Source: an uncultured Mailhella sp. (lineage in GTDB: Bacteria; Desulfobacterota; Desulfovibrionia; Desulfovibrionales; Desulfovibrionaceae). Taken from it: a DNA stretch of 62,748 bases. The DNA lies in contig NZ_CALUYL010000020.1 in assembly GCF_944324995.1 (NCBI RefSeq), positions 1 to 62,748 of the forward strand, given 5' to 3'. The notes below the pieces were generated by a model, which searched no databases, was not told the DNA's origin, and saw only the letters and a list, made by a program, of their open reading frames with translations. Shown here in pieces: positions 3,990 through 41,596 of the stretch. Every line of letters starts with the position of its first letter. Within the stretch, counting starts at the first letter, position 1. The translations under genes and the position numbers were made by a program.

Positions 3990-3999
3990 TTCGAGAGCA

Positions 4000-4032: not shown

Positions 4033-4137
4033 CTTATGCTTTTTCAGCATTTCCGGGAGCTTTCCGCTTCCGCGCGCTTCCAAGCTTCTTCCCTGCCGGG
4101 TTCTCCGGCGAGGCCTTTTTCCTCCCTCTCCCCCCCC

Positions 4138-4185
4138 AAAAAAAGCGCACCGACGGCGCGCCTCAAAAACGCACGCCGTCGGCGC
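4138..4185 (-). terminator. terminator of the cyanate operon
   Basis: On the minus strand a GC-rich stem (CGCCGACGGCG pairing with CGCCGTCGGTG, bases 4185-4145) is followed by seven T (4144-4138). It lies just after the ATPase gene. Confidence 0.8.
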
Positions 4186-4218
4186 ACCATGTCCGATTCC
4201 GGGAATCCCGCCTCAAAG

Positions 4219-5013
4219 CTACGCGGCCTGCGACGCCCCCTTCTCACTGAGAAACTGAATGATCCGGTTGCGCAGCTTGTAGTAGTCGGGATGCTCGATG
4301 ATGGACGCCCTGGTTCGCGGCCGCGGAATCTCGATGGGAACCACCTCCCTGATTGCCGCGAACGGCCCGGCGCTCATGAGCAGAATGCGGTCCGAAAGCA
4401 GTATGGCTTCGTCCACGTCGTGCGTCACCATGAATATGGTCACGCCCGTATCGTTCCACATGCGTATGAGCTCATCCTGAATGGTTCCGCGCGTCAAGGC
4501 GTCGATCTGGGCAAAGGGCTCGTCCAGCAGCATCATGGGAGGCTGCACGGCAAAAGCCCGGGCAAGGCCGCAGCGCTGCTTCATGCCGCCGGAGAGCGCC
4601 GAAGGATACTTGCCCTCCGCGCCCTTCAGATTGACGAGCTCCAGATAATGCGACACGCGTTCGTGAATCTTGCTGCGGCTCCAGTGCGGATACGCGGCCT
4701 GCACGGCAAGGCGCACGTTCTGATACACGGTCATCCACGGCATGAGCGCAAAGTTCTGGAACACCACCATGCGGTCGAGTCCGGGGCTGCTCACCTCCCT
4801 GCCCTTCAGAAGAATGACGCCTTCATCGGCGTGGTCGATGCCGGCAATGATGTTGAGCAGGGTGGACTTGCCGCAGCCGGAATGCCCGATGACGGAAACG
4901 AATTCCCCTTCCCGTATCTGCAGGGAAATGTCGCGAAACACGCAGTAGGGTTCTTTCATGCCGGGAACGTTGTACGTCTTGCTTACCCGGTCCACTTCAA
5001 GAAGAGGTGTCAT
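4219..5013 (-). CDS. cynD: ABC transporter ATPase, nitrate/sulfonate/cyanate type (CynD-like)
   Basis: A 264-residue ATP-binding subunit with Walker A GHSGCGKST (residues 43-51), Q-loop FQNFALMPW, signature LSGGMKQR and Walker B MMLLDEPFAQ, followed by the H-loop MVTHDVDEA. It energises import of the substrate bound by the protein encoded at 5904-7268. The Nrt/Ssu/Tau/Cyn ATPases are hard to tell apart by sequence alone; cyanate is assigned from the cynS neighbour. It lies 24 nt after the permease and is the last gene of the operon. Confidence 0.9.
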   Translation of the reverse strand: MTPLLEVDRVSKTYNVPGMKEPYCVFRDISLQIREGEFVSVIGHSGCGKSTLLNIIAGIDHADEGVILLKGREVSSPGLDRMVVFQNFALMPWMTVYQNVRLAVQAAYPHWSRSKIHERVSHYLELVNLKGAEGKYPSALSGGMKQRCGLARAFAVQPPMMLLDEPFAQIDALTRGTIQDELIRMWNDTGVTIFMVTHDVDEAILLSDRILLMSAGPFAAIREVVPIEIPRPRTRASIIEHPDYYKLRNRIIQFLSEKGASQAA

Positions 5014-5037
5014 GATGCCTCCTTCGACGGTAAGAAA

Positions 5038-5844
5038 TCAGTCCGTGTAGGCCAGGCGTCTGGCGAGCCTGGTGAACAGCCAGTCCACGATCACGCCGAC
5101 GACGCCGATGGTGAGAATGGCGAAAATGACGCTCGGCAGAGACAGGTTGTTCCATTCGTTCCACACGAAATAGCCCAGTCCCAGGGAGCCGAGCAGAGCC
5201 TCGGCGGGAATGAGCGCGACCCACGCGCTGCCCATGGATATCTTCAATCCGGCAACGATGGCGGGACCGGCCGCGGGAAGAATGACCTTGAAGAACTTTT
5301 CCGAGGGCCGCATCTGCAGGATGGACGCCACGTTGAGATATTCCTTGCGTATATTGCCCACGCCGAAGGCCGTGTTGGCCAGCGTAGGCCACAAGCTGGC
5401 CATGAAAATGACGAAAAAGGCCGTCATTTCGCTGTCTCTGACGGAATACAGAAGCAGCGGCATCCACGCGATGGGCGAAATGGAGCGCAGAATCTGAATG
5501 TACGGATTGGCGGCGGCAAACAGGGTCTGACTGCGGCCGAGAATCACGCCCAGAATGACGGCCACCACGCTTGCCAGCACAAAGCCCGAAATCAGACGCA
5601 GGAGACTGTAGCCCACAAGAATGGCTATTCCCTTGTCGTTGGGGCCCGCGTCGTAGAAAGGATCACTGAGAAACTCCAGAGACACCGTCGCCACCTCGCC
5701 GGGAGTGGGCATTTCCGAGCCCTGAGCCAGAAGCTGCCACAGCGCAAGGAAAACGACGGCAAGCAGCAGACAGAGAAAAAGGGATTTACTGTTCATGAGC
5801 GTACCCGAAAAAAGATGCGGGACAGAAGCCGGCATGACGATCAT
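5038..5844 (-). CDS. cynB: ABC transporter permease, nitrate/sulfonate/cyanate type (CynB-like)
   Basis: A 268-residue inner-membrane permease of the binding-protein-dependent family with about six hydrophobic segments and the EAA-type cytoplasmic loop (KFFKVILPAAGPAIVAGLKISMGSAW). The ATG at 5844 has AGAGG 5 nt upstream; a later ATG (5796) has a poorer site. Cyanate is the likely substrate from context; nitrate or a sulfonate cannot be excluded from this sequence alone. Confidence 0.88.
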   Translation of the reverse strand: MIVMPASVPHLFSGTLMNSKSLFLCLLLAVVFLALWQLLAQGSEMPTPGEVATVSLEFLSDPFYDAGPNDKGIAILVGYSLLRLISGFVLASVVAVILGVILGRSQTLFAAANPYIQILRSISPIAWMPLLLYSVRDSEMTAFFVIFMASLWPTLANTAFGVGNIRKEYLNVASILQMRPSEKFFKVILPAAGPAIVAGLKISMGSAWVALIPAEALLGSLGLGYFVWNEWNNLSLPSVIFAILTIGVVGVIVDWLFTRLARRLAYTD

Positions 5845-5872
5845 TCCGGCCTCTGTCCCCGTGCTTTGGACA

Positions 5873-5891
5873 ACGGCCTCTCGTCGGCCGT
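5873..5891 (-). promoter_or_regulatory. intercistronic hairpin between binding protein and permease
   Basis: A 6-bp perfect inverted repeat (ACGGCC, 7 nt, GGCCGT) without a T run. Hairpins here commonly stabilise the upstream message, giving more binding protein than permease; that role is inferred. Confidence 0.4.
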
Positions 5892-5903
5892 CGGGAAAAC
5901 AGA

Positions 5904-7268
5904 CTATGCCTTTCTGATGGCAAAGCTCTTGATGTACTCTTCCGGTTTGTCGGGATCAAACTCCTTGCCCATGACGACGTGCTTCTTGTACGCCGAGGTC
6001 GGGGGCGTGAATCCCATTTCCTTCATGACCGAAGCGCAGTCCGCGGCAAGGAAGACCTGTTCGGCTATGCCGCGATAATCCACGTCGCCCTTGAGGTAGC
6101 CCCAGCGCTTGAGCTGGCTGAGAATCCACACGGCCATGGAATCCCACGGGAAGGGATCGAAATTGATGCGCTCGGGCACGTGACACATGTTGCCGAGACC
6201 GTCGGGGAACTCGCCGGTAAGCACCTGTTCCACCACTTCCACGGGCTGGTTGAGATAGTTGCGGGGAGCGATGGCCTTGGCGATGTCCTTGCGGTTGGCC
6301 GGATCGGAACTGAACATGGTGGCGTCGATGATGGCGCGGAAAATGGCCTTGAAGGTATTGGGAGCCTCTTCCGCGAACTTCTTGGAAGAGGTGAAGGCGC
6401 AGCAGGGATGCCCGGGCCAGATGTCGCGGGTCAGCATGAAGATGAAACCGGCCTTCTCGTACACGGCACGCTGATTGAACGGGTCGGGCGACAGGAATCC
6501 GTCGATGTTGCCCGCCTTGAGGTTGGCCACCATTTCCGGCGGGGGCAGAATGCGGATCTGCACTTCCGTGTCGGGATTCACGCCGCCTTCGGCCAGATAG
6601 TAGCGGAGCAGCAGATTGTGCATGGAATAGTCGAAGGGAACGGCAAACACGAAGCCCTTCATGTCCTTGGCGGACTTCACGCCCTTGTGATCCATGCGCA
6701 GGGTAATGGCCTGTCCGTTGACGTTTTCCAGCGCGGGAGTGAGGAAAGGCATCTTGGGCGAGCCCAGGCCGAGCGACATGGCAATGGGCATGGGGGCGAG
6801 CATCTGGGTGTAGTCCGTCTGACCGGAAACCGCCCAGTCGCGTATCATGGCCCAGCCGGAAGCCTTGTAGGGCTGCGCTTCCGTAAGACCGTATTTCTTA
6901 TAAAATCCCATGGGATGCGCCATCACAATGGGCGTGCCGCAGGTGAGCGGCATGAAGCCTATCTTCACATCCTTCTTTTCAATGGGGCCTATGGCGTCAA
7001 GAGCCATGGCCTTGGCGGCGTCCAGAGGAAAAATACTGCTGATGACGGCCATGGCCGAAGACGCGCCGAGCATTTTCATGAATGAGCGTCGACTGACGTC
7101 GTTGCCGCCGAATATCTTGCGTACCACGGAGGATTCCACGGCGCGCAGCATGGCGGATTCGCCGTCGACGGGGGACGAAGGGGACACGGCCGCATGGTCA
7201 TGGGCCAGTCGAGTGGTGGAGCTGAACGGATCGGCCAGACTGGCCGGCCCTGTATGATGCTGAGACAT
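5904..7268 (-). CDS. cynA: exported cyanate/nitrate-type substrate-binding protein (CynA/NrtA family)
   Basis: A 454-residue NrtA/CynA-type binding protein. A twin-arginine signal is clear: S-R-R-S-F-M-K at residues 59-65, then a hydrophobic stretch and a likely cleavage near residue 87 (DAAKA). About 58 residues precede the twin arginines, much longer than a usual n-region. The mature part has the family motifs KIGFMPLTCGTPIVMAHPMG and GFLSPDPFNQRAVYE. It follows cynS by 48 nt and starts with AGGAAA 7 nt upstream. The folded export route fits the tat genes at 60567-62196. Substrate is inferred from cynS. Confidence 0.9.
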   Translation of the reverse strand: MSQHHTGPASLADPFSSTTRLAHDHAAVSPSSPVDGESAMLRAVESSVVRKIFGGNDVSRRSFMKMLGASSAMAVISSIFPLDAAKAMALDAIGPIEKKDVKIGFMPLTCGTPIVMAHPMGFYKKYGLTEAQPYKASGWAMIRDWAVSGQTDYTQMLAPMPIAMSLGLGSPKMPFLTPALENVNGQAITLRMDHKGVKSAKDMKGFVFAVPFDYSMHNLLLRYYLAEGGVNPDTEVQIRILPPPEMVANLKAGNIDGFLSPDPFNQRAVYEKAGFIFMLTRDIWPGHPCCAFTSSKKFAEEAPNTFKAIFRAIIDATMFSSDPANRKDIAKAIAPRNYLNQPVEVVEQVLTGEFPDGLGNMCHVPERINFDPFPWDSMAVWILSQLKRWGYLKGDVDYRGIAEQVFLAADCASVMKEMGFTPPTSAYKKHVVMGKEFDPDKPEEYIKSFAIRKA

Positions 7269-7316
7269 GGCGATTTCCTTGAAGATAAAACATGATGAAA
7301 GGATTCCTGCCGACGA

Positions 7317-7757
7317 TTACCACTTCTTGTAGGGAAGGAACTTGCCGTTCAGGGTCACCACCACGCGGTCGCCGTGGGGATTTTCTTCCTTCTGAATGTC
7401 CATGGTGAAGTCGATGGCGCTCATGATGCCGTCGCCGAACTTCTCATGAATGACTTCCTTGATGGTTCCGCCGTATACCTGCATGATTTCATAGAAGCGA
7501 TAGATGAGCGGATCGGTGGGCACGATGGTGTCCGTTCCCTTCATGGGGCACTCCTGCAGGGCTTCCGCCACTTCCGCAGGAAGGCCCAGAATCTCCACGG
7601 CCTTTGCCGCCTGCTCCGCCGTCATGCTGTTCTGACCCAGCAGCGCGGAAGTAACCCATACCGGATGTCCGCCCACATGAGCGGCAATGGCTTCCCAGGA
7701 AAGATGTTTGCTGAGCTTGGCTTCCTTTATCATCTTGGTAGCTTGGCTGCGTTCCAT
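7317..7757 (-). CDS. cynS: cyanate hydratase (cyanase)
   Basis: A 146-residue cyanase, which converts cyanate plus bicarbonate to ammonia and two CO2 in the cytoplasm. The C-terminal catalytic domain is well conserved: the Arg and Glu in YRFYE and the Ser in IMSAIDF occupy the positions of Arg96, Glu99 and Ser122 of the E. coli enzyme, with identical spacing (26 residues from Arg to Ser). The ATG at 7757 has GGAG 7 nt upstream; the TTG at 7775 does not. It is the first gene of the operon, before its transporter. No carbonic anhydrase (cynT) or CynR regulator is adjacent. Confidence 0.97.
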   Translation of the reverse strand: MERSQATKMIKEAKLSKHLSWEAIAAHVGGHPVWVTSALLGQNSMTAEQAAKAVEILGLPAEVAEALQECPMKGTDTIVPTDPLIYRFYEIMQVYGGTIKEVIHEKFGDGIMSAIDFTMDIQKEENPHGDRVVVTLNGKFLPYKKW

Positions 7758-7795
7758 GTGTATGCTCCTTTGCAATGACTGTTTGTCGCAAGTAT

Positions 7796-7811
7796 TGCAA
7801 GAAGCATGCCA
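7796..7811 (-). promoter_or_regulatory. sigma-54 promoter of the cyanate operon
   Basis: The minus strand reads TGGCATGCTTCTTGCA. This matches the sigma-54 -24/-12 consensus TGGCAC-N5-TTGCA at all but one base, with correct GG-to-GC spacing. Transcription would start near 7785, about 28 nt before the cynS ATG. Confidence 0.78.
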
Positions 7812-8118
7812 ATAAAAATATAATGTTATTTCAGCGAGATATATTTTATTCCTGCTGTTTTTGCCTGGAGAAAGAACAAATACGTATCAAATAACGGTGA
7901 TCATGTCACAAAACCGAAAAGAATCAGAGCAACAAACGGACTGCCCTGTTCCGCCGCCGGGCAACAGCCTGTCGCCTGCGGCGTCGGCACGGCGATCCCC
8001 GGCCATGCAGGAGGCAGCGCCTTCCGCCATGCCCGAACGTTGCCAGCCGTGCCGCATGAAGGCATCGCCCTGCTCCTGCCGAACGCACGTCAGGCGTCCC
8101 GCCCTGTTTACTGACGGA
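7812..8118. other. gene-free region upstream of the cyanate promoter
   Basis: The first 50 bp upstream of the sigma-54 element are AT-rich. An 8-bp palindrome ATACGTAT lies at 7880-7887, where an activator could bind, but this is a short and weak signal. The rest is GC-rich sequence with no recognisable gene or RNA. Confidence 0.5.
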
Positions 8119-8161
8119 CAAAAAAGCCGCCCCGGCCCGGAATCTCCGGACAGAGGCGGCG
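8119..8161 (-). terminator. terminator of the glucoamylase-family gene
   Basis: On the minus strand CCGCC and GGCGG arms flank a further inner stem (TCCGG with CCGGG), followed by six T (8125-8120). Confidence 0.75.
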
Positions 8162-8197
8162 GAACGTTGCGCATGCGTGCCTGAGCCGCACGTCAGA

Positions 8198-9901
8198 TCA
8201 GTTCATACGGATGGGCAGTCCTGCGGTCAGATCGCCGATGTGCATGATGAGCTGATACTTTTCCTGCGTGGCAGGCATGAACTGGGGAAATTCCAGCAGG
8301 TTGGGGCCCTTGCGCCCTTCACGGGTAAAGCGTTTGACGACCTTGCCGGAGGCGTCTTCCAGCGTGAAGAAGACCATGCCGTCCTTCTCGCAGCTGTAGG
8401 GCACGGTGTAAAGTCCGGTGTCGGGATGACGGCGCAGATCAAGAGCGTCCAGTTCGTAGCCGGATTCCGTCTTCTTCAGCGGCACCACCACCTGCGGGAA
8501 GCCGTTGACCGCGGGAAGCGGCTGCACGCCCATGCGGGCAAGTCCTTCCTGCACTTCGGGAATGTTCATGAACAGCGACCAGAGCAGACCGCTGCGGTAG
8601 TTTTCCACCATGCTCACGATGGGAAGCTGGTCGATGGCAAGATAGCTGTTGTCGAACCAGGCGTCCTTCAGGCTGAAGGCGTCGTAGGGACCGTAGGGGC
8701 CCCACATCTTGTCCTTGTAGTTGTCGTAAATGTTCCACAGCACGCGCATGGAATATTCCGGCGTGTACGGCATGGAGGAAAGCGCGGCCGTAGGAGCCAC
8801 CGTGCCTATCTCGTTGTAGGCGGACTGGTAGCGATACCCGCCCTTCACGTCGCAGGCGGTCAGGCCCCAGAAGCCTTCGCTGAACTGATGCTCGGCCGGC
8901 GCGGATTCCAGCGCATAGGCGCGGTTCATGAGCGTGTGCGTGATGTTGCGCACCATGTAGCCGCGACGCACGTGTTCGTCGGCCATGCGGCGGGGATCCA
9001 GACCGATGAAGGAATAATGCGACAGGAACATGCAGCCGCCGTAGGCGTTGGCCGCCTCAATGGTGTAGCCGTTGCCGGTTTTCGGCTGATATTCCTCCGT
9101 GGAATACCAGAACTTGGCCGCCTCGCGGGAAATGGGATGCGTCGGCGAACCGAGCGCCAGCACATAGGCCACCATGGCTTCGTTGAACCCGGAAATCTTC
9201 ATGCCCATGCCGAAATCGGCGGTGGGGCTCCAGTGCCAGTACAGGCCGTTGTTTTCCGACTTCGTGAACCAGTGCCAGTCCACGTCGTGCCACAGTTCGG
9301 TAATGCAGTCGCGCAGGGCCTTTTCCTGCTCCGTGTCCGCCGTAAAATAGGCGCGGGCAATGAGCAGTCCCTGCATCATGAAGGCCGTTTCCACCAGATC
9401 GGCACCGTTGTCCTGCTCGCCGAAGGAAATCGTCTTGCCCGTGCGGCCGTCCAGCCAGTGCGGGAAGGCGCCGTGCAGATTCTTTCTGTCCGTCTTGTCG
9501 CGCAGGAACGTGGCTATCTTAAGCACGCGATCCAGCGCGTCCTGATGGGAGATCCAGCCGCGTTCCGCAGCCACGACAATGGCCGCCACGCCGAAGCCCG
9601 AACCGCCGATGGTGGCCTGTCCGGTTTCCTTGTTGCGGCTGTCCTCATAGGCCAGACCGGATTCCGGGAACGTGTGATCCCATATGTAACGAAACGCGTC
9701 GTACTGCAGACGATCAAGGAGATGACGATCCTTGCGGAAGGAGTCGTCGGGCTGAAATTCGTTCAGCGCCGCCGTATTGGCCTGAACGGCTTCGGGCTGC
9801 GGTGCGGCGGCCTGCTTCTGCGCCTGTGCGGCAAACACGGAACAGGGAAAGAGCAGAACGGCAAGCGCCATAGCCAGAAAAACATGTTTTCTCAGATTCA
9901 T
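8198..9901 (-). CDS. secreted glucoamylase-family (PF10091-type) protein
   Basis: About 567 residues. A Sec signal peptide (MNLRKHVFLAMALAVLLFPCSVFA) is followed by an alpha/alpha-barrel-type protein with the family motifs DAFRYIWDHTFPESGLAYEDS, HWSPTADFGMGMKISGFNEAM and VLALGSPTHPI. Members are related to glycoside hydrolases acting on beta- or alpha-glucans, often cyclic glucan or capsule polysaccharides; the true substrate is not known here. Start at 9901 chosen for the signal peptide; an ATG two codons upstream (9907) is equally possible. It stands alone with its own terminator. Confidence 0.85.
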   Translation of the reverse strand: MNLRKHVFLAMALAVLLFPCSVFAAQAQKQAAAPQPEAVQANTAALNEFQPDDSFRKDRHLLDRLQYDAFRYIWDHTFPESGLAYEDSRNKETGQATIGGSGFGVAAIVVAAERGWISHQDALDRVLKIATFLRDKTDRKNLHGAFPHWLDGRTGKTISFGEQDNGADLVETAFMMQGLLIARAYFTADTEQEKALRDCITELWHDVDWHWFTKSENNGLYWHWSPTADFGMGMKISGFNEAMVAYVLALGSPTHPISREAAKFWYSTEEYQPKTGNGYTIEAANAYGGCMFLSHYSFIGLDPRRMADEHVRRGYMVRNITHTLMNRAYALESAPAEHQFSEGFWGLTACDVKGGYRYQSAYNEIGTVAPTAALSSMPYTPEYSMRVLWNIYDNYKDKMWGPYGPYDAFSLKDAWFDNSYLAIDQLPIVSMVENYRSGLLWSLFMNIPEVQEGLARMGVQPLPAVNGFPQVVVPLKKTESGYELDALDLRRHPDTGLYTVPYSCEKDGMVFFTLEDASGKVVKRFTREGRKGPNLLEFPQFMPATQEKYQLIMHIGDLTAGLPIRMN

Positions 9902-32821: not shown

Positions 32822-33970
32822 ATGGACAAAGCCCCCGGCACCTTTGAACTCCTGGGCAAGGACGGCAACGCCCGCGCCGGCCTTCTCCATACCGCGCACG
32901 GCGTCATCGAAACGCCCATCTTCATGCCCGTGGGCACGGTGGGCAGCGTAAAGGCCCTCGCTCCCGACGATCTCAACGCCATCGGCGCGCAGATCATTCT
33001 CGGCAACACCTATCATCTGTACCTGCGCCCCGGCGACGAACTCGTGGCCCGGCGCGGAGGTCTGCACGAATTCATCCGCTGGAACAAGCCCATCCTCACG
33101 GACAGCGGCGGCTTTCAGGCCTTCAGCCTGAGCAAGCTGAACAAGATGAAGCCCGACGGCGTGGAATTCCGCTCGCACATCGACGGCTCCAAACACATGT
33201 TCACGCCGGAAAAGGTCATTTCCATCCAGCGCAATCTCAATTCCGACATCATGATGCCGCTCGACGTGTGCCTCGGCTACGGCGCCACCCATGAAGAAGC
33301 CGAAAAGGCCGTGAAGCGCACCACCGAATGGGCGCAGCGCTGCCGCGACGCCTATCCTGCGGGAAGCGCGGGCAATCTTCTCTTCGGCATCGTGCAGGGC
33401 TGCACCTTCCCCGAGCTTCGCGAAGCCTCGGCAAGGCAGCTCATGAACATCGGCTTCGAGGGCTACGCCATCGGCGGCCTGGCCGTGGGCGAACCCAAAA
33501 ATCTCATGATGAAGAATCTGCGCGCGCTCAACCCCGTGCTGCCGCAGGACAAGCCACGCTATCTCATGGGCGTGGGCACGCCGCTGGACATTCTGCACGG
33601 CATAGAGGCAGGCGTGGACATGTTCGACTGCGTGCTGCCCACCCGCAACGCCCGCAACGGCACGCTCTACACCTCGGAAGGCAAGATCAACATCAAGCGC
33701 CTCCAGTACGCCGAAGACGACAGCCCCCTCGATCCGAAATGCAACTGCTACACCTGCCGCACGTTCAGCAAGGCCTACCTGCGCCACCTGTACGTCAGTC
33801 AGGAACTGCTCGCCTTCCGCCTCAACTCTCTGCACAACCTCACCTACTTCCTCAACATGGTGCGAGGCGCACGAAAAGCCATTCTCGAAGGCAGATACGC
33901 CGCTTTCAAGGCGGAATACGAGGCCAAATACCCCGAAGAGGACGCGCTCTTCGACGCGCCGGAACTTTAA
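32822..33970 (+). CDS. tgt: tRNA-guanine transglycosylase
   Basis: 382 residues. It exchanges G34 for preQ1 (queuosine pathway) in tRNAs with GUN anticodons. Catalytic Asp94 lies in TDSGGFQ and Asp269 in [13 protein letters not shown]; the zinc ligands are in [17 protein letters not shown]. Followed by a strong terminator. No other queuosine gene is nearby. Confidence 0.98.
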
Positions 33971-34004
33971 TCCGTCCGCTTTTTGCCGACGCCGTCGGCA
34001 CGGC

Positions 34005-34036
34005 AAGGGCGCGCCCAACCGGGCGCGCCCTTTTTT
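34005..34036 (+). terminator. terminator of tgt
   Basis: Perfect 10-bp stem GGGCGCGCCC, loop AACC, GGGCGCGCCC, then six T. Confidence 0.93.
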
Positions 34037-34159
34037 CGTGACTTCGCCCCCTCTGCTCCGCCGCGCCCTGCGAGCGTCGGAAGGCCCCGGGCCCGCAGCT
34101 TCGGCGACGCAACAGACCGGCGCAAAAAGTTCCCGCTCCGAAGGGCGGGGCGTTTAAAC

Positions 34160-34187
34160 GCAAAGGCCGGCGTCGAAGACGCCGGCC
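34160..34187 (-). terminator. probable terminator of the ATP-grasp/M14 operon
   Basis: Perfect 10-bp stem (GGCCGGCGTC, loop GAA or TTC, GACGCCGGCC), followed on the minus strand by an interrupted T run (TTTGCGTTT). Confidence 0.65.
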
Positions 34188-34208
34188 CGAATGCCGCTGC
34201 AATCTCGT

Positions 34209-35135
34209 TCAGCTCGCGATAAGCCGGAACAGCATGGAATTTTCCAGCACCAGCGGACGCGTCTGCATGAAGAACACCGTGCCGTCGGCGGGAGCGCGAA
34301 CCTCCCAGCGCACGGAGCCGTCGTAGGGATCAAGAATGCTGGCAAGGTGCTGATGACGACGCACCACGTCGTCGGGGCGGCAGGTGCAGTACATGATGCC
34401 CGCCCGGCAGGCCTTGACGTTGATGAGTTCCTCTTCCTGCACCACCTGGGAATAGTAGCCCGGATGAGAACGGTAGCGGATGATGCCGTGCAGCGCCATG
34501 AAGCGCAGAATGGCGGCCAGACTGTCGTCGGCGGTGGCGACGTCGATGACGCCGGTATGCCCGGCGTACACGGAAAACGCCTGCGTTTCCCAGATCTGCC
34601 AGTTGTAGTTCAGCGTGGTGGTGTCGATGGGCAGGGGATTGCGCACCAGCGTGTAGGGCAGCCCGAAGCCCTGGGCGAGCTCCACATTTTCGTATCCGGT
34701 GTGCATCATGCGCACATGGGGAATGAAATCTCCGGCGAGGTAGTAGCTCGCGAGCTGCACGCCGAATTCATAGCCCTGAATGTGCTCGAACAGGGCCGAG
34801 GCGATGCGCTGCGTGGTTTCGCCGAGGGCGTAGCCGGGGAACATCCGGTTGATGTCGGTGTTGTCCATGGCCCAGAAGCGCTTGCCGATGTTCATGGCAA
34901 AGGGGTTCGCCGAGGGAATGACGAGAATTTCATGACCGGGCATGAGCTCGCCGCGCTCTTCCAGATCCTGAAGCTTGTGGACTAGACGCGAACAGACGAA
35001 CTGCTGCTGAAGCTCGTCGCCGCGCATGGCGCCCACCACAGCGAGACTCTTTTTGCCGGAGCCGAAGCGAAAGCCGTGAATGCGGAACTCGTCGCGGAAC
35101 GGAGACGGCATGACGAAAAGACGTTCACGTTTCAT
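34209..35135 (-). CDS. M14/aspartoacylase-like protein lacking catalytic residues (paralogue B)
   Basis: 308 residues, same fold family as its upstream neighbour (AstE/AspA-like, with a C-terminal beta-barrel). The zinc motif G-x-H-G-x-E is replaced by G-A-M-R-G-D-E, with Arg38 in the His position. The D-I-H-S-S motif is lost (GVQLAS at about 125-130), and the catalytic Glu of V-V-E-M-G is not found. The substrate Arg motif (DINRMFPG) is kept. It is probably a ligand-binding pseudoenzyme, perhaps a partner of paralogue A. Its ATG at 35135 overlaps the stop of paralogue A (ATGA) and has GGAGG upstream. Confidence 0.82.
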   Translation of the reverse strand: MKRERLFVMPSPFRDEFRIHGFRFGSGKKSLAVVGAMRGDELQQQFVCSRLVHKLQDLEERGELMPGHEILVIPSANPFAMNIGKRFWAMDNTDINRMFPGYALGETTQRIASALFEHIQGYEFGVQLASYYLAGDFIPHVRMMHTGYENVELAQGFGLPYTLVRNPLPIDTTTLNYNWQIWETQAFSVYAGHTGVIDVATADDSLAAILRFMALHGIIRYRSHPGYYSQVVQEEELINVKACRAGIMYCTCRPDDVVRRHQHLASILDPYDGSVRWEVRAPADGTVFFMQTRPLVLENSMLFRLIAS

Positions 35136-36070
35136 GCGTTGTCCTCCCTGTACACGCGCGCGAGCAGCGACCCTTCGTACACGACGGGGTACGCCCGGAT
35201 GGTGAAGACGAATCCCGGCTTTTCCACGGCCACTTCCTGGAGCACCACGCCGCGCAGCGGATCGACGATGCGCCCGATGGACTGTCCGGCCTCGACCTGA
35301 TTGGACTGACGGATGAGCGGAATGAACACGCCCGACGCGGACGCGTTGATGAATTCCACGGAACCGCCGGTGGAAAGTATGGTCTTGTGCCCGGGCGCAG
35401 GCTCGGGCACGTCGCCCTTCCAAACGCCGAGATGACGCATCAGATTCAGGATGCCGCCCACGAGCTGATCGCCGTAGCTTTTGGTAATGCGCATGCCCAC
35501 GCCCATTTCCACCACCAGCGTGGGCGTATTCAGGGCGTTGAGGGAATAGGCCAGCGTGGCTTCCAGCACGGTGGCGGCCTCATGCACCCACAGAAAATCC
35601 AGATTCAGATGCTTGGCCAGCGGCACCAGACGTTCCGCGGTCAGCTGATTGATGCGGACCTGCGGCACCTCGTACAGAAAAATGTTGCTGGAATGGATGT
35701 CCAGCACGAGATCCGCGCCCTTCAGGTCCTCAATGATGTTGTAGGCCGTATTTTCCGCCATGCTGCCCCGGGGATCGCCGGGAAAAATGCGGTTCATGTC
35801 CAGATCGAAGTTGGGAATGCCGCGCGTGATGGAGTCTATGCCCAGCGGATTGAGCGCAGGATAGATTTCCACCGTGCCGTCCAGGCATTCGGGATGTTCC
35901 TGCAGAATGCTGCCGATGCGATAGCAGATGTACTGCCCTTCCAGTTCGTCGCCGTGGGTGCCGGTGACGATGCAGATGCGTTTTTTGCCGGAGCCGGAGG
36001 AAATGCTGTTCTTGCGGATGAGCAGATGCTCGTCCACGGGCAGCTCCGTGGATATGACGGTTTTTATCAT
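35132..36070 (-). CDS. M14-family (succinylglutamate desuccinylase/aspartoacylase-like) hydrolase (paralogue A)
   Basis: 312 residues. Zinc ligands H39 and E42 (GTHGDELEG) and H126 (LDIHSSN), substrate-binding Arg in DMNRIFPGD (about 91-99), and the general-base Glu188 (VVEMG) are all present. Family members hydrolyse amide bonds of acylated amino acids, or trim peptides. In this operon it may remove or edit the product made by the ATP-grasp protein (inference). Start at 36070 overlaps the transglutaminase stop by 4 nt. Confidence 0.87.
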   Translation of the reverse strand: MIKTVISTELPVDEHLLIRKNSISSGSGKKRICIVTGTHGDELEGQYICYRIGSILQEHPECLDGTVEIYPALNPLGIDSITRGIPNFDLDMNRIFPGDPRGSMAENTAYNIIEDLKGADLVLDIHSSNIFLYEVPQVRINQLTAERLVPLAKHLNLDFLWVHEAATVLEATLAYSLNALNTPTLVVEMGVGMRITKSYGDQLVGGILNLMRHLGVWKGDVPEPAPGHKTILSTGGSVEFINASASGVFIPLIRQSNQVEAGQSIGRIVDPLRGVVLQEVAVEKPGFVFTIRAYPVVYEGSLLARVYREDNA

Positions 36071-36894
36071 GCTTGTTCCACTTTGATGTCTAGGGTGTTC
36101 CGCTGCGCGGCCAGGCCGCTGAACACGCCCCTGTTCACGGAACAGTCGGCGCTGTCGCGGCCGTGCGCCACCTTGATGCAGCCATAACGGAGCAAACGGT
36201 TGTTGGTGGGGTCGAGACCTCTCCACACTCCCTGATCGAAAACCTCCACCCATGCGTGGGTGGCTCCCTCGCCGACAAGATAGCCGCAGGCGTACCGCGC
36301 CGGAATGCCGCACAGACGCAGCAGGGCAAGAAGCACGTGGGCGTAGTCCTGACAGACGCCCTGCCCCAGTGCAAAGGCCTGCGCCGCGGTGGTGTTCACC
36401 GTGGTCACGCCGGGAACATAGCTCATGCGTGCATGCACGGCCCCGCACAGCGAAAGCGCCTTCGCAAGCGCGGGCCCGCCGATCTCTTCCGCAGCGTCCG
36501 CAACGGCGAAATCCCCGCCGTCCGCCTGCGCGGCAAAGCGCTTCATGTCCGCGTCGGGAAGGGTCAGCGCGGTATGCTCCAGAAACATGCCGTGCGCCGT
36601 GCCGCAGATGCGGTACGGCGTCTGACGCACCACCCCCTCGGACACGATGCTGAATCGAACATGCGCTCCGGCAACATACCCCGTCTGCACGGCGTTGCCG
36701 AAGGCGTCGAGCCCGTCGCTGACGGGCAGTACAAATTCGTTCTCATCGTCCTGCGCGACGCTCACGCGCAGCAGAGCCCGTTCCACCTTCTGGAAGGACT
36801 CCGACTTCGGCACGCACCGCAAAAGCCAGGAATGGGCGGAAACCGGCGAGGAAAAGTGAATATGGCTTTCGTAACGATAAAAAAACTGCTTCAT
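36067..36894 (-). CDS. transglutaminase-like cysteine peptidase/amidase
   Basis: 275 residues. The N-terminal beta domain (Bact_transglu_N type, FFYRYESHIHFSSPV) is followed by a transglutaminase core with a full triad: C181 (GQGVCQDYAH), H213 (ATHAWVEVF) and D228 (GLDPTNN). Bacterial members of this group act as proteases or amidases more often than as cross-linkers. The ATG at 36894 overlaps the alpha-E stop by 4 nt. Confidence 0.92.
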   Translation of the reverse strand: MKQFFYRYESHIHFSSPVSAHSWLLRCVPKSESFQKVERALLRVSVAQDDENEFVLPVSDGLDAFGNAVQTGYVAGAHVRFSIVSEGVVRQTPYRICGTAHGMFLEHTALTLPDADMKRFAAQADGGDFAVADAAEEIGGPALAKALSLCGAVHARMSYVPGVTTVNTTAAQAFALGQGVCQDYAHVLLALLRLCGIPARYACGYLVGEGATHAWVEVFDQGVWRGLDPTNNRLLRYGCIKVAHGRDSADCSVNRGVFSGLAAQRNTLDIKVEQA

Positions 36895-37571
36895 ACCAGG
36901 ACCAGGGAGTTCAACGAACCAAGCACGTCGGGAAGTTTCTTCCCGTAATCGCGCCCGTCGGAGAATATCTCCCTGAGCCTGTTTCTGCAACGCCCGTCCA
37001 CCATGTCTTCAATGTGCCCGAGACGGTGATCCAGACTTTCCCACTCCGCGGCGATGCGGCTGAACGGGTAGTCGAACCTTGAATACATATCAATGTATTC
37101 CACATGTTTGCCGATGAAAAGCATGTCCAGCGTGGCAATATTGGTCACGTGCTGGAACACGGAGCCCCAGAAGGCGAGAATATAGTCGGTGAGGGGCTGA
37201 AGCCGAACGATGTTGATGTCCTGCTTGTGGCGGCAGTGATTGATCGTGGCCATGCAGAGGTTCACATAGCTGATGGATGCCGTGGTGAGTTCCTCGCGCA
37301 GCACGATGCTGTTGTCGTTCAGGCATTCCAGGCAGTACAGCAGAGAGCCCGGCGTATTCTCGAAAAGATGCTGATACAGAAAACTTTCCCTGTCGGCAGG
37401 GCAGTTGGTCAGAGAAAGCTTGCGGCAGTAGATCTGAAGAGCGTCTTCCCGGCCTTCATCCAGGCACAGATCGTAGTACCGGCGCAGGAAATGAAGCTGG
37501 GCGAAGAGACGCTCGGCGTAGCGCCCCAGCCAGAAAAGATGGTTGGCCTTGGCGGGAGATATGGAAGACAT
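36891..37571 (-). CDS. alpha-E domain protein
   Basis: 226 residues, largely helical, opening with SPAKANHLFWLGRYAERLFAQ and later RFDYPFSRIAAEWESLDHRLGHIEDMVDG, both typical of the alpha-E domain. Known almost only in operons with circularly permuted ATP-grasp and transglutaminase genes; its own activity is not established. Starts 33 nt after the ATP-grasp gene. Confidence 0.9.
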   Translation of the reverse strand: MSSISPAKANHLFWLGRYAERLFAQLHFLRRYYDLCLDEGREDALQIYCRKLSLTNCPADRESFLYQHLFENTPGSLLYCLECLNDNSIVLREELTTASISYVNLCMATINHCRHKQDINIVRLQPLTDYILAFWGSVFQHVTNIATLDMLFIGKHVEYIDMYSRFDYPFSRIAAEWESLDHRLGHIEDMVDGRCRNRLREIFSDGRDYGKKLPDVLGSLNSLVLV

Positions 37572-37604
37572 GACGCGTCCTTTTTTCGATAACGGTGGAA
37601 GATT

Positions 37605-38948
37605 CTACAAGGATTTCAGATGCGACTGATGATCGCGCATGACCCAGGTATCCTTGAAGCCGCCTCCCTGACTGGAGTTGACCACGAAGGAATCGGCCTG
37701 ACGGGCAAAACGGGTGAGTCCGCTTTTCCAGACCACCTCGCCGTCGGAGGAAGAGAGCACAAAGGCGCGCAGATCGGCCTTGCGATAGACCACGCCGTGA
37801 TCTTCCATGGTTTCCAGATCCTTGAAATTGATGACTTCCTGCGCAATCCAGCGGCGGGGTTCGGAACGAATGAGATCCTTCAGCTTTTCCAGGCGGTCGT
37901 GTTCCAGGTCGCGTCCGAACACCACGCCGTAGCCGCCGGCCTCGCTCACGTCCTTGATGACCAGCCTTTCCGCGTTGGCGAGCACGTAATCTCTGTCTTC
38001 CTCGTAATAGGGGAGATAGGTGGGAGCATTCTGCAATATGGCCTTTTCGCCGAGATAGTATTCCACCATGCGGGGCACGAAGTAGTAAAGCCCCTTGTCG
38101 TCGGCCACGCCGTTGCCGGGACAGTTCAGCACGGCCACGTTGCCCGCGGCGTAGGCCTGCATGAGGTTCGGCACGCCGAGGAGGGAATCCGGCTCAAAGG
38201 CCATGGGATCGAGATACTCGTCGGACACGCGCCGGTAGATGGCTCCCACCAGCGTTTTTTCGTGGAAAATGCCCTGATAGTACACATGGTTGTCTTCCAC
38301 AAGAAGATCGCCGGGAAACGCCAGCACGGCTCCCGTGCGTTCCGCGAGATAGGAATGTTCAAAAAACGCGGAATTGTAGCGCCCGGGCGTGAAGACCACG
38401 TTCAGTCCGCCGTTGACGTTCATGTCGTCCATGGTGTGCTTCAGAAGCTGCGGATAGTCGCGGTTGTCTTCGATATGGTTGGCGGCAAACGTTTCCGGGC
38501 TCACCTTGCGGGAGATGGAACGGGCGATGAGCGGATAGGACGCTCCGGAAGGAATGCGGAGATTGTCTTCCAGAACGAACCAGCTTCCGTCCCTGGCCTG
38601 CACCAGATCTATGCCGGCTATGTGGGCGAACACGCCGTGCGGCGGACGAATGCCCTCGCACTGGGGAAGATAGCCTTTGGAGGCATAGATGAAGGATTTG
38701 GGCACGATGTTATTTTTAATGATGTTCTTTTCGCCGTAAACGTCGGCAAGAAACAGATTGAGTGCTCTGACGCGCTGCGCAAGTCCCTTTTCAAGATAGG
38801 CCCATTCTTCGGGCTCAATGACGCGGGGAATGGGATCAAAGGGGAAGAGCTGTTCCTTGAACTTCCCGTTTTTATAGATTCCAAAGCGCACGCCGTAGCG
38901 TTCCAACCAGTTGTTCACAGCTTCACGGCTTTCTACGAGTGAATACAT
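37605..38948 (-). CDS. circularly permuted ATP-grasp peptide/amide ligase
   Basis: 447 residues of the CP-ATP-grasp type 2 family. Recognisable motifs: FIYASKGYLPQCEGIRPPHG, DLVQARDGSWFVLEDNLRIPSGASYP, YYFVPRMVEYYLGEKAILQNAPTY, KDVSEAGGYG (ATP-binding glycine-rich loop), and LRAFVLSS. These enzymes are predicted to join amino acids or peptides with ATP. The ATG at 38948 has AGGAG 6 nt upstream; the frame runs on 99 nt upstream through a terminator hairpin, so a longer form is unlikely. First gene of a five-gene operon behind a sigma-54 promoter. Confidence 0.9.
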   Translation of the reverse strand: MYSLVESREAVNNWLERYGVRFGIYKNGKFKEQLFPFDPIPRVIEPEEWAYLEKGLAQRVRALNLFLADVYGEKNIIKNNIVPKSFIYASKGYLPQCEGIRPPHGVFAHIAGIDLVQARDGSWFVLEDNLRIPSGASYPLIARSISRKVSPETFAANHIEDNRDYPQLLKHTMDDMNVNGGLNVVFTPGRYNSAFFEHSYLAERTGAVLAFPGDLLVEDNHVYYQGIFHEKTLVGAIYRRVSDEYLDPMAFEPDSLLGVPNLMQAYAAGNVAVLNCPGNGVADDKGLYYFVPRMVEYYLGEKAILQNAPTYLPYYEEDRDYVLANAERLVIKDVSEAGGYGVVFGRDLEHDRLEKLKDLIRSEPRRWIAQEVINFKDLETMEDHGVVYRKADLRAFVLSSSDGEVVWKSGLTRFARQADSFVVNSSQGGGFKDTWVMRDHQSHLKSL

Positions 38949-38984
38949 GTCGGACTCCTGCTTGATATGTTCCGACTTTAATAA

Positions 38985-39000
38985 TGCAAAAAATGTACCA
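38985..39000 (-). promoter_or_regulatory. sigma-54 promoter of the ATP-grasp operon
   Basis: The minus strand reads TGGTACATTTTTTGCA. GG and GC of the -24 and -12 elements are in exact register, one mismatch to TGGCAC-N5-TTGCA. Predicted start near 38974 leaves a 26-nt leader containing the AGGAG site of the ATP-grasp gene. Confidence 0.78.
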
Positions 39001-39008
39001 GGTTGTCC

Positions 39009-39039
39009 AAAAAAAAAGCCCTCCCGGGGCTTCTTTTTT
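39009..39039. terminator. bidirectional terminator just upstream of the sigma-54 promoter
   Basis: AAGCCC, short loop, GGGCTT, with nine A on the left and six T on the right. On the minus strand it would stop readthrough from the pseudouridine synthase-CoaE gene before the sigma-54 promoter, which lies downstream of it. Confidence 0.75.
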
Positions 39040-39040
39040 A

Positions 39041-39528
39041 CATTCACGGCATAATGCTGAAATATAAGAACAAAAAAGGAACGTCAGTATTCAGACAGGC
39101 GCAGACAGGACATTGTTCCGCCTCCGGGCGGCGCAAACAGGAGCCGAACGCAACAAATGCAGAAAATACCTAAGATAACAGACACTATCGGCTGTCGGCA
39201 TGCCTTGTCGAATGGTGCAATAATGTATTGCAACTATATTTTCGAGATGATTTTATATTGAAAAATTTTATGGGCTTACAAATCCGTGTCTGCGCAAGAC
39301 GGCCTCTTTCTGCTGATGAAAGCAGCGCAACGCGGCGCACGACAGAGCGCGCAGCAAAGGCCAGAGACGCGCCTGTGCGGAAGCACCCTTTTCAGACGCG
39401 CGGCATAACGTCCAACGCAGGCTGCCGGGCATCGACGCGTTTTCCGCGCGGATGCGGCAGACTGTGCGCGTGCGGCCTGCCCCTGGACGGCAAGGAGATT
39501 GCCCCGCGGATGCCGCAGAGGACCCGCC
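39041..39528. other. gene-free region upstream of the ATP-grasp operon
   Basis: AT-rich between 39041 and 39280, as expected for an enhancer/IHF-type region. No gene recognised. Contains the palindrome at 39216-39232. The rest up to 39528 is GC-rich and follows the pseudouridine synthase-CoaE stop. Confidence 0.5.
39216..39232. promoter_or_regulatory. palindrome, candidate activator (enhancer) site
   Basis: Perfect inverted repeat TGCAATA-ATG-TATTGCA. It lies about 215 bp upstream of the sigma-54 -24 element, within the usual range for an enhancer-binding protein site. Confidence 0.5.
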
Positions 39529-41196
39529 TCAGTCCCGCGCCTGCCCTTCTTCACCGCTCCACAGAGCGCGCCACCTTTCCTCAAGCGTGGCTTCTTCGCT
39601 CTTCTGCCTTGCGGTGAGCGCGTCAAGAAACGCGCCGACTTCCCGGTCGAGGTCATCCAGCGTGCCGTCGTTGCGGATCAGAAGATCGGCCGCCGCAATC
39701 TTGTCCTCCGGCTTCCACTGCCAGCTCTCCACGGCGGCGATTTTGGCGTCGCTCCAGCTCCGTGTTTCCCGAAGGCGCGCATGACGCACGTCCTCCGGGC
39801 AGACGATGACCGCAATGTCCGCGCCCGGGCACGTCCACCCCGTTTCAAACCAGAGCGGCACTTCCGCCACGGCCACGCCTTCCCCGCGCTCCTGCGCCTT
39901 CCGGAAAAACGTCTCCATGGAATCGCGCACCAGCGGATGAATCATGCGTTCAAGCTCGCGCCGCATGCCCGGCGTTTCCGCAAGCAGCCTGGTGAGCGCC
40001 GTGCGGTTCACCCGGCCCGATTCGTCGAAAAAGGCGTCGCCCCAGCGCTGACGCATGAGACGCCAGCCGTCCGCGCCGGGCAGATACTGCGCGGCCACGG
40101 CCTTGTCCGCGCTCCACACGGGAATGCGGCGCGCCTCCATGCGTTCGAGCACGGCCGACTTGCCGCAGCCCGGCATGCCCGTAAGAATGACCCGGCGCAT
40201 GCAGCGCTCCAGCGCCAGCATGGCGCGGGGAAAATCTTCCGGCGGCGGACACGTGAAGCTCATGGGCTCGCCGCTCACCGGATGCGCAAACTCCAGCTTC
40301 CAGGCGTGGAGAAGCTGCCGCGCAGCGGGCGAAGTCTTATCATTGGGGCCGTACACGGCGTCGCCCCACAGCGGAAAGCCCGCCCGTGCGAGATGCACGC
40401 GTATCTGATGCGTGCGCCCGGTGAACAGGCGCACGGCAAGCAGCGCAAAACGGCCGGAAGGCGACGCGTAGAGCGTGCTCCACCTGGTGAGCGCGCAGCG
40501 CCCGCCCTTCTCCTCGGGCACCACGGCCATGCGCGTTTTTATCGTGGGATGCCGTCCGATGGGCAGATCGCTGCTTCCTTCGGCCGGAGGCACCCCGCGC
40601 GTGACCGCAAGATAGGTCTTATGCACGCGGCGCTGCGCAAAATCTTCGATGAGGCGCAGTCTGGCCCGTTCCGAAAGCGCCACGATCACAAGGCCGGAGG
40701 TGTCCTTGTCCAGACGATGCACGATGCCGGGACGCGGCCCTTCCTGAAGCGCAAGCTGCGGAAAGCGCGCCAGCATCCGATGCACCAGCGTGCCCGAAGG
40801 ACAGCTCGGACACGGATGCATGGTCAGTCCGGCGGGCTTGTTGATCACGGCGATGTCCGCATCGCTGTACACGATGTCGAGCGGCCCTTCTTCCGGCGCC
40901 AGCGCGTCCGACGCGCCGGGCATGGAAAGCTCCACGATCTGGCCGGGGCGAACCCTGTAATCGGCGTCCGCGCAGGGCGCGCCGTCCACAAGGCAGTCGC
41001 CCTGCTCCACCAGCTTCTTCACCCGGCTGCGGGAAAGCTCCGCCGCAGCGCCGAGAAAAGCATCCAGACGCATCTTCTTCGAGCCCGCAGGAACCTCGAA
41101 ACGCCGCTTCCGTCCGCCGCACGGCGTCTGCAGGGCGTCGTCATCGGCTGATTCCAGCTCGCCGGAAAACTCTTCCGTCCGCATGTCCTCAGTCAT
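39529..41196 (-). CDS. fused RluD-type pseudouridine synthase and dephospho-CoA kinase
   Basis: About 555 residues in one frame. N-terminal half: S4 RNA-binding domain (about 42-90), then the pseudouridine synthase core with catalytic Asp in HRLDKDTSG (166 counted from a GTG at 41205) and GRTHQIRVHL. C-terminal half, from about residue 336, is CoaE: P-loop GMPGCGKSA, then the SADKAV and EVPLWFETGW motifs. The two halves would modify 23S rRNA and make the last step of CoA. The junction has no stop or frameshift. Start taken at ATG 41196; ATG 41184 is an alternative. It overlaps the thioesterase stop by 8 nt. Confidence 0.88.
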   Translation of the reverse strand: MTEDMRTEEFSGELESADDDALQTPCGGRKRRFEVPAGSKKMRLDAFLGAAAELSRSRVKKLVEQGDCLVDGAPCADADYRVRPGQIVELSMPGASDALAPEEGPLDIVYSDADIAVINKPAGLTMHPCPSCPSGTLVHRMLARFPQLALQEGPRPGIVHRLDKDTSGLVIVALSERARLRLIEDFAQRRVHKTYLAVTRGVPPAEGSSDLPIGRHPTIKTRMAVVPEEKGGRCALTRWSTLYASPSGRFALLAVRLFTGRTHQIRVHLARAGFPLWGDAVYGPNDKTSPAARQLLHAWKLEFAHPVSGEPMSFTCPPPEDFPRAMLALERCMRRVILTGMPGCGKSAVLERMEARRIPVWSADKAVAAQYLPGADGWRLMRQRWGDAFFDESGRVNRTALTRLLAETPGMRRELERMIHPLVRDSMETFFRKAQERGEGVAVAEVPLWFETGWTCPGADIAVIVCPEDVRHARLRETRSWSDAKIAAVESWQWKPEDKIAAADLLIRNDGTLDDLDREVGAFLDALTARQKSEEATLEERWRALWSGEEGQARD

Positions 41197-41596
41197 GGGC
41201 GTCACCGCAGTCCAGCTTCTTCAGCACATATCCGGTCATCACGGCCTTGGCGATGTTGCGCCCTTCGCCGTCGTACACCATGATGTCGTACACGGCGAGC
41301 GTGCGTCCCAGCCGGACGGGCGAAGCCTTCGCCCGGAGCGGACCGCAGGTTCCCGGCAGAAGATAGGAAATGGAACACTGCGCACTCACGCACAGAATGC
41401 CGGCGCCGCGGCATCCGGCCGCAAAGGCCATGTCGGCCAGCGTGAATATGGCCCCGCCGTGGGCGTTTCCCATCACGTTGAGATGACGGGAGTCCAGCGG
41501 CATGGAAACTTCGCCGTTTCCTTCCGCGTCAAAACCTTCCACCCGAATGCCCAGCAGCGCGGACAGCGTTCCTTCGGTGACGACATCACAGCCCAT
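41189..41596 (-). CDS. PaaI-like hotdog-fold thioesterase
   Basis: 135 residues. The hotdog signature is clear: MDSRHLNVMGNAHGGAIFTLADMAFAAG-like region with N-x-x-G-x-x-H-G-G and a downstream Asp. Such enzymes hydrolyse acyl-CoA, often aromatic. The ATG at 41596 has GAGGAG 7 nt upstream; the long upstream extension of the frame lacks family similarity. Confidence 0.87.
   Translation of the reverse strand: MGCDVVTEGTLSALLGIRVEGFDAEGNGEVSMPLDSRHLNVMGNAHGGAIFTLADMAFAAGCRGAGILCVSAQCSISYLLPGTCGPLRAKASPVRLGRTLAVYDIMVYDGEGRNIAKAVMTGYVLKKLDCGDAHD

Follow-up and report, generated by a model that had tools for sequence, protein, structure and literature searches.

Why should an operon for a CP-ATP-grasp ligase, an alpha-E protein and a transglutaminase-like enzyme end in two adjacent M14-type hydrolase genes, one of which has the residues of a dead enzyme, and what might these five proteins do together? 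The question is raised by a 62,748-nucleotide (nt) stretch of DNA, contig NZ_CALUYL010000020.1 of an uncultured Mailhella sp. (Desulfovibrionaceae), which is referred to here as the window. The genes occupy its minus strand from position 38948 to 34209, wherein the ligase (447 amino acids (aa), 37605..38948; PF14403, E 1e-136, and PF04174, E 1.2e-123) is followed by the alpha-E protein (226 aa, 36891..37571; PF04168, E 2.5e-16), the transglutaminase-like cysteine enzyme (275 aa, 36067..36894; PF01841 Transglut_core, E 7.4e-19, and PF08379, E 3.6e-8), M14a, which is a predicted active zinc hydrolase resembling AstE, AspA and DoeB (312 aa, 35132..36070), and M14b, a conserved M14 pseudoenzyme (308 aa, 34209..35135). 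Families were assigned by Pfam, and all five proteins exceed the curated cut-offs. Both M14 proteins match PF24827 (AstE_AspA_cat; E 6.9e-23 and 5e-16), as an initial annotation had anticipated in calling them AspA/AstE-like paralogues. A 33-nt gap (37604-37572) lies between the ligase and alpha-E genes, and the remaining three junctions are 4-nt ATGA overlaps. Gene coordinates and Pfam families thus bear out the compact minus-strand arrangement annotated initially, apart from the ligase start, which had been placed at 39040, about 90 nt too far upstream. The ligase begins with an ATG at 38948 that is preceded by GGAG and is kept in seven aligned Desulfovibrionaceae upstream regions; the sequence from there up to 39040 is part of a GTG extension of the ligase frame that lies outside the gene.

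The closest known system is the Anbu operon, which comprises genes for an ATP-grasp protein, an alpha-E protein, a transglutaminase and Anbu, and whose function is treated as unproven in the relevant sections of two reports (PMC6376114, PMC5666114). Three of its four families recur, closely packed, in the window operon, which also shares with it an alpha-E gene that directly adjoins the ligase gene and a homologous ligase that falls in the same tree. The link to CP-ATP-grasp/alpha-E/transglutaminase clusters that had been drawn for the window is supported; neither the component families nor the notion that such systems synthesise peptides is new. The window operon has no Anbu gene (Pfam finds no PF00227-like domain in its five proteins) and carries instead an M14 pair, one member predicted active and the other dead, at its 3′ end; its ligase belongs to a separate clade on a branch of 1.26; and its alpha-E protein has 226 aa, against 309 to 364 aa for the stop-to-stop open reading frames (ORFs) of 17 separate alpha-E genes in loci L101-L120.

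Indeed, Anbu and the M14 pair occur as alternatives. Forty ligase stretches outside the M14-type set, 20 from Bacteroidota (19 of 81 other ligase-matching genomes, plus genome G555) and 20 from the window's order, Desulfovibrionales (19 of 27 genomes), were searched with the M14 profiles and with an Anbu profile built from nine proteins. M14a or M14b is matched in none of the 40. Anbu is encoded next to the ligase operon in 9 of the 20 Bacteroidota and 17 of the 20 Desulfovibrionales stretches, mostly between the alpha-E and transglutaminase genes; counted by genome, 17 of the 19 Desulfovibrionales examined (from 27 other ligase-bearing genomes among 150) carry Anbu-type operons. Of five Anbu proteins that were scanned, four exceed the proteasome cut-off of Pfam, and the one from L133 falls just below it (21.7 versus 22.4). 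The remaining 14 stretches have neither hydrolase, which for some is explained by the end of a contig (L148) or by a ligase of the fused type (L117, L118 and L144). By its gene content, the M14-type operon is a defined subtype, set apart from many of its sister operons by a 3′-terminal M14 pair and the lack of an Anbu gene.

The ligase tree draws the same boundary. Sixty-six M14-type ligases and that of L132, whose contig ends directly after the ligase gene, form one clade (support 100 in the Shimodaira-Hasegawa-like approximate likelihood ratio test, SH-aLRT; branch 1.26) that is placed outside the Anbu-type ligases. The tree was computed by a quick method with no bootstrap and includes long branches, among them those of L117, L118 and L144. 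The single clade suggests one origin of the M14-type operon, followed by its spread. Within it, two Treponema rows fall inside Bacillota, and rows from Fibrobacterales and Spirochaetaceae fall inside Bacteroidota, a mixed placement that points to horizontal transfer. In the three long-branched loci just named (L144 being on contig C2 of genome G093), a single long ORF fuses the CP-ATP-grasp and alpha-E domains and adjoins a transglutaminase-like gene, with no Anbu or M14 match; as placed in this tree, the fused type is a third, distant subtype.

What distinguishes the two M14 proteins from one another is the state of their active sites. For this comparison, sequences from 77 of 79 loci for M14a and 80 of 80 for M14b were aligned, along with 62 of 68 for the ligase (at least 400 aa), 69 of 72 for alpha-E and 72 of 74 for the transglutaminase-like protein, and the window was added to each set. 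The rows are not independent, near-identical ones being included in all but the 50-locus divergence correlation given below, and split genes were left broken. Residues H39, E42, N93, R94, H126 and E188 of M14a correspond to R38, E41, N96, R97, A129 and Y190 of M14b. By what is established for AspA and AstE, we take H39, E42 and H126 to be zinc ligands, E188 the catalytic residue and N93 a substrate residue, and an alignment of the M14 proteins with DoeB and 3cdx supports these roles. All five are present in 78 of 78 M14a rows and R94 in 77 of 78; in a 40-row set that includes pairs lacking a ligase, one M14a row has Asp in place of the catalytic Glu. In M14b, all 81 rows have Arg38 where the first zinc-binding His would stand, position 129 is A, S, P or T, and position 190 is Y, F or C. 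One of three zinc ligands is left and the catalytic Glu is gone, yet Glu41 and the substrate-binding Asn96-Arg97 are retained in every one of the 81 rows, and the surrounding stretch DNTDINRMFPGY is mostly invariant or nearly so. Nine of nine Desulfovibrionaceae outgroup proteins retain the catalytic residues, and both M14a and M14b group apart from them, as two clades with SH-aLRT of 100% each. The pseudoenzyme label that M14b had initially been given therefore holds: by its residues it is a conserved pseudoenzyme that has been preserved across phyla, and M14a is predicted to be a zinc hydrolase with intact AspA/AstE-type catalytic residues.

Single-chain AlphaFold models have predicted local distance difference test (pLDDT) scores of 87 for M14b and 83 for M14a, and their best Foldseek matches are 3cdx, DoeB (6twm), CphZ (8ein and 8eip) and related uncharacterised structures. 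The titles of these relatives name a deacetylase (DoeB) and a dipeptide hydrolase (CphZ). The M14b model retains the same fold (3cdx, E 1.7e-20, template modelling score 0.79). The pair thus resembles the AstE/AspA/DoeB/CphZ branch of M14 (PF24827) in the zinc and catalytic residues and fold of M14a and in the fold of M14b, and differs from it in having two paralogues side by side, one of which is without two zinc ligands and the catalytic Glu. A parallel for such a pair is the beta/alpha mitochondrial processing peptidase, whose dead subunit is described as directly involved in its partner's activity in the relevant part of a review (PMC11266112). The same review's table places that enzyme in family M16 rather than M14, and the M14 pseudopeptidases in the part that concerns them are animal and yeast proteins (PMC11266112).

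Two measures tie the M14a and M14b genes closely to each other. Their junction has the lowest median gap of the four (-4 nt), and the genes overlap in 39 of 79 loci, as measured by a script that takes the ATG nearest the stop and so favours short gaps. Across 50 loci, the divergence of M14a is best matched by that of M14b (r 0.90, versus 0.79 to 0.87 for the other nine gene pairs).

Two of the remaining proteins are also well preserved in their key residues. The Cys181-His213-Asp228 triad of the transglutaminase-like protein is kept in 73 of 73 rows, and the ER motif of alpha-E (E20, R21) has its E in 68 and its R in 70 of 70 rows. The sole solved-structure match of the ligase is 3n6x (E 3.5e-109), whose title names a putative glutathionylspermidine synthase. 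In glutathionylspermidine synthetase/amidase, a ligase is paired with a cysteine amidase, which makes it a fair analogy for the present system. The window ligase differs in that Pfam finds CP-ATP-grasp domains only, with no fused CHAP-type amidase domain.

How widespread is this arrangement? A scan of a collection of genome contigs with M14b returned 440 related stretches, of which the best 80 were fetched and analysed, a choice that biases the set toward close relatives. The complete order of ligase, alpha-E, transglutaminase, M14a and M14b on one strand is present in 67 of these 80 loci, including four in which one gene is spread over two frames (the ligase in L038, L043 and L049, the transglutaminase in L091). 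Ten of the other 13 are cut by contig ends, two have no ligase (L044 and L054), and one, from Tannerella (L052), has the ligase trio inverted and still adjacent to the M14 pair. The hosts, gut and other bacteria that are for the most part anaerobic, belong to Bacteroidota, Bacillota, Spirochaetota, Fibrobacterota and Thermodesulfobacteriota, and many are gut or rumen assemblies by title. Conservation of the operon across phyla and the linkage of its genes are far beyond chance.

Samples of genomes from single orders gave a second measure of linkage. Their order labels were inferred from the titled loci through which they were reached, and the Bacteroidales, Lachnospirales and Treponematales samples include centre genomes picked for carrying the system. 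A threshold of E 1e-30 was applied because at E 1e-3 the M14b profile gave matches in 66 of 198 genomes sampled across the phylum Bacteroidota, all of them weak except that of the centre genome (best 1.4e-17, versus 3.4e-153 for the centre). M14b is strongly matched in 6 of 198 genomes from Bacteroidales, 18 of 196 from Lachnospirales, 4 of 146 from Treponematales and 1 of 150 from the window's order. In the first three samples, 21 genomes encode both M14b and the ligase, and every one of them carries the two genes on a single contig, no more than a few kilobases apart. A linked ligase accompanies M14b in 6 of 6 Bacteroidales (Fisher p 9e-11), in 13 of 18 Lachnospirales, where no ligase occurs without M14b (Fisher p 1e-16), and in 2 of 4 Treponematales (Fisher p 0.002). 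Of 23 ligase genomes in these three samples, two lack M14b, namely G555, where the ligase lies in two frames and Anbu is present (L119), and G843, in which the contig stops behind the ligase gene. The initial annotation had named unlinked M14 and ligase genes in related genomes as a finding that would refute its proposal; for the most part, the genes are linked. In the window's order, the single genome with a strong match is the window's own, which has one CP-ATP-grasp match. Another genome of its genus has no M14b, and nine further genomes of the order have weak profile matches (E 2.9e-8 to 2.3e-12) to other AspA-like proteins. The five-gene operon is therefore not typical of the window's family.

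Spread on plasmids was considered and rejected: a tblastn search of 72,556 plasmid records with M14b returned 15 records, all below 60% identity (below 30% in the 10 rows shown), and no plasmid copy of the system was found. A search for a sixth gene, in which ORFs of at least 90 aa from the 80 loci were clustered, yielded 33 clusters spanning at least four loci, and no widely shared additional gene among them. Four clusters are operon families, most other widespread ones are out-of-frame shadows, and the rest join close relatives, with two exceptions. One is an ATP-binding cassette (ABC) ATPase cluster from 11 loci, 9 of whose 12 ORFs lie outside the operon genes, some of them by eye still out of frame; the other is a lyase cluster from L013-L016 and L045. 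Only three neighbour clusters were named by family.

Upstream of the ligase gene, a sigma-54-like -24/-12 element, CTGGTACATTTTTTGCA (GG-N10-GC; 38985..39001, minus strand), begins 53 nt before the ATG. It matches 11 of 13 consensus positions, a score reached by four sites in the whole window on both strands. The GG and TGCA of the element are invariant in 7 of 7 Desulfovibrionaceae upstream regions, in which other upstream bases mostly vary. Transcription of the Mailhella operon probably starts at this sigma-54 promoter, and nitrogen control of the operon is plausible. Related systems have been tied to nitrogen or to sigma-54 in sections of three reports: a Burkholderia cluster of DUF404/407, DUF403 and transglutaminase genes is described as sigma-54/NtrC dependent (PMC5491218); Pseudomonas putida PP_2685-2688, one of whose products is proteasome-like, responds to nitrogen limitation and is listed as NtrB/NtrC controlled (PMC7801951); and a Bradyrhizobium CP_ATPgrasp_1 gene appears in a table of predicted RpoN boxes (PMC13207237).

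From this body of evidence we infer how the operon might work. We give about even odds to the view that the five genes are a version of the Anbu-type CP-ATP-grasp/alpha-E/transglutaminase system with an M14 pair, one chain active and the other dead, standing in place of Anbu. The ligase, with alpha-E as its partner, would convert a carboxylate to an acyl phosphate and join it to an amine, yielding a small amide or isopeptide; for the ATP-grasp protein of a sister Anbu operon, release of phosphate from ATP is reported in the part of PMC6376114 that concerns it. The transglutaminase-like Cys-His-Asp enzyme would rearrange, transfer or hydrolyse an amide of the ligase product. M14a would make a zinc-dependent cut at an amide that adjoins an amino acid whose carboxylate is free, and release that amino acid. 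M14b would most likely supply the dead half of a heteromer with M14a, in which it binds a ligand at its Asn-Arg site and shapes or gates the active half. The pair would serve in place of the N-terminal nucleophile (Ntn)-hydrolase Anbu of sister operons, though it is placed 3′ rather than beside alpha-E. The whole cycle, wherein a small amide or isopeptide is made and cut, would be cytosolic, as signal-peptide-like starts were not seen by eye. A sigma-54 promoter in Mailhella would fit a function in nitrogen limitation.

Several observations weigh against this proposal. Anbu was matched in 0 of the 80 M14 loci, but it was sought in the fetched stretches only, and a distant Anbu gene is possible. 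All gene pairs of the operon diverge congruently, and joint inheritance alone may explain the close match between M14a and M14b. An M14 pair is present without a ligase in eight genomes (5 of 18 Lachnospirales, 2 of 4 Treponematales and the genome of L054). A sigma-70-like match, TGGACA-17-CATTAT, overlaps the sigma-54-like element, and is itself retained in the window, L013, L014 and L018 only, not in L015, L016 or L019. Beyond the window, a sigma-54 score of 11 is reached in just 4 of 65 M14-type upstream regions. Those four sites lie 40 to 74 nt before the ligase domain; the rate for random stretches is about 1%, and 1 of 41 upstream regions of other, non-M14 ligases reaches this score, far from the gene. 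Given the count of 4 in 65, we regard the site as a feature of some lineages, and sigma-54 control as a general feature of M14 operons was rejected.

Ligase absence in the eight genomes was called at E 1e-30 in the order samples and E 1e-3 for the genome of L054. A missing contig is not its cause in G748, where the contig that carries the pair is as long as the entire genome (4.5 Mb); L021's genome, which also gives no ligase match, has M14b at a contig end and carries no weight. M14a and M14b are adjacent in all eight, and therefore the pair behaves as a unit that is able to persist without the ligase. Two of the eight preserve remnants of the lost genes, namely pieces of the transglutaminase gene in L044 and, before M14a in L054, a weak 22-bit fragment of alpha-E. 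In L044 (Treponema, 5844-6832), the transglutaminase gene lies in two frames, the ligase and alpha-E genes are gone and the M14 pair is intact, a gene state in which it is the ligase half that decays first. Around the pair in L054 (Lachnospiraceae, 1-9703), inspection by eye identified a piece of a tripartite ATP-independent periplasmic (TRAP) transporter, an MlrC-like peptidase, and aminotransferase, kinase-like and haloacid dehalogenase (HAD)-like genes, possibly a catabolic cluster for the substrate of the pair. The ORF lists of L054, L044, L093, L094, L095 and L096 revealed no shared context, and the other two ligase-free loci, L097 and L131, were checked with profiles only. The pair is separable, and therefore the cycle of synthesis and trimming initially proposed for the operon does not account for every genome.

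The separable pair would be expected if hydrolysis were the main task and synthesis an accessory, with the M14 pair freeing amino acids from N-acyl amino acids or isopeptides imported from the gut and the ligase half making or recycling a carrier. ABC-transporter ATPase genes 3′ of M14b in L017 and L018 (oligopeptide/dipeptide type) and L088 would suit such scavenging, as would the nitrogen-limitation response of sister operons noted in parts of PMC5491218 and PMC7801951. Such neighbours are few, however, since the close same-strand ORFs found in 29 of 71 assessable loci differ in content, and the remnants in L044 and L054 indicate that ligase-free loci may be products of decay; we consider scavenging unlikely. 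We reach a similarly low estimate for protein tagging, wherein proteins would receive a tag, either a peptide or an amino acid, from the ligase and the transglutaminase-like enzyme, and the M14 pair would trim it or take it off, M14a being the enzyme that de-tags. Three families are shared with the Anbu operon, for which tagging is proposed in the section of PMC6376114 that discusses function, although the part of the same Yersinia study that describes Anbu assays reports that peptidase activity was not found. On the structural side, CCP5, an M14 enzyme that acts on protein tails, is a weak fold match of M14a, yet M14a matches the DoeB/CphZ/3cdx branch far better than carboxypeptidases. The want of a sixth gene widely shared among the 80 loci also speaks against tagging.

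The invariance of Asn96-Arg97 and of most of DNTDINRMFPGY despite the loss of catalysis raises a different prospect for M14b, that it is a sensor and no structural subunit, binding the product through its Asn-Arg site and switching M14a or the ligase. The same pattern fits a heteromer that merely keeps its fold, and we hold the sensor role to be rather doubtful. CphZ appears among the solved-structure matches of both M14 proteins, which brings to mind a cyanophycin-like storage polymer, with the ligase building an isopeptide polymer and M14a performing the last dipeptide cleavage as CphZ does. Pfam finds no cyanophycin synthetase or cyanophycinase among the five proteins, and the identity of M14a to CphZ is low (14-16%); this explanation is very improbable. 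Returning to the M14-pair variant of the Anbu-type system, its boldest form would be that a new two-chain M14 hydrolase, one chain live and one dead and working only together, displaced Anbu in a widespread peptide- or amide-conjugation system, was carried by gene transfer between anaerobes, those of the gut among them, in five phyla, and both makes and recycles an amide metabolite not yet described when nitrogen is limiting. That full account is possible, but we advance it tentatively and with more doubt than belief.

The either-or choice of hydrolase constrains the function of CP-ATP-grasp/alpha-E/transglutaminase systems. If Anbu and the M14 pair serve the same step, then the product would be cleavable both by a proteasome-like Ntn-hydrolase and by an AspA/DoeB-like zinc hydrolase, which makes a small amide or isopeptide a likelier substrate than a protein. 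Because the M14 branch has a testable substrate chemistry, the M14-type variant offers a workable way to identify the product. With binding residues that stay invariant across phyla, the pseudoenzyme is also a clean case for the study of active/dead enzyme pairs in bacteria. The literature searched yielded no account of the M14-pair subtype, the exclusion of Anbu, the single ligase clade, the five-phylum spread, the invariant dead M14 protein or the ligase-free pairs; Iyer et al. 2009 lay outside that search and may mention part of them, and so we do not claim that they have gone undescribed.

Several features around the operon can be described briefly. A predicted intrinsic terminator (34164..34188, minus strand; an 11-pair stem with a short T tail, by consensus match only) lies 3′ of M14b. 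A terminator-like hairpin (39011-39032; AAGCCC/GGGCTT) was called on the plus strand and appears by eye to be usable on the minus strand as well; roughly 10 nt separate it from the putative -24 element, which lies downstream, and it is not conserved in L013-L016, the syntenic loci with 80-87% DNA identity to the window. No RNA element reaches Rfam gathering scores within 33900-39700. Downstream of M14b in other loci, a same-strand ORF within 200 nt is the setting of the ABC-transporter ATPase genes mentioned above: L017 3236-4030 (70 nt from M14b), L018 8939-9883 (11 nt) and L088 8940-9791 (6 nt). L017 and L018 are from Mailhella, the L018 ATPase carries an oligopeptide/dipeptide C-terminal domain, and the L088 ATPase was named by eye; no such gene was seen 3′ of M14b in the window or in L013-L016. 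One Blautia assembly (JAMPFM) has two M14b loci on different contigs (L061 and L082), which may reflect a duplication or a mixed bin. In the window, the downstream flank of the operon holds a gene for queuine tRNA-ribosyltransferase, and the upstream flank one in which pseudouridine synthase and CoaE are fused. The latter is a 558-aa ORF (39532-41205, minus strand) with S4, RNA pseudouridine synthase and CoaE dephospho-CoA kinase domains, in which two unrelated housekeeping enzymes are fused.

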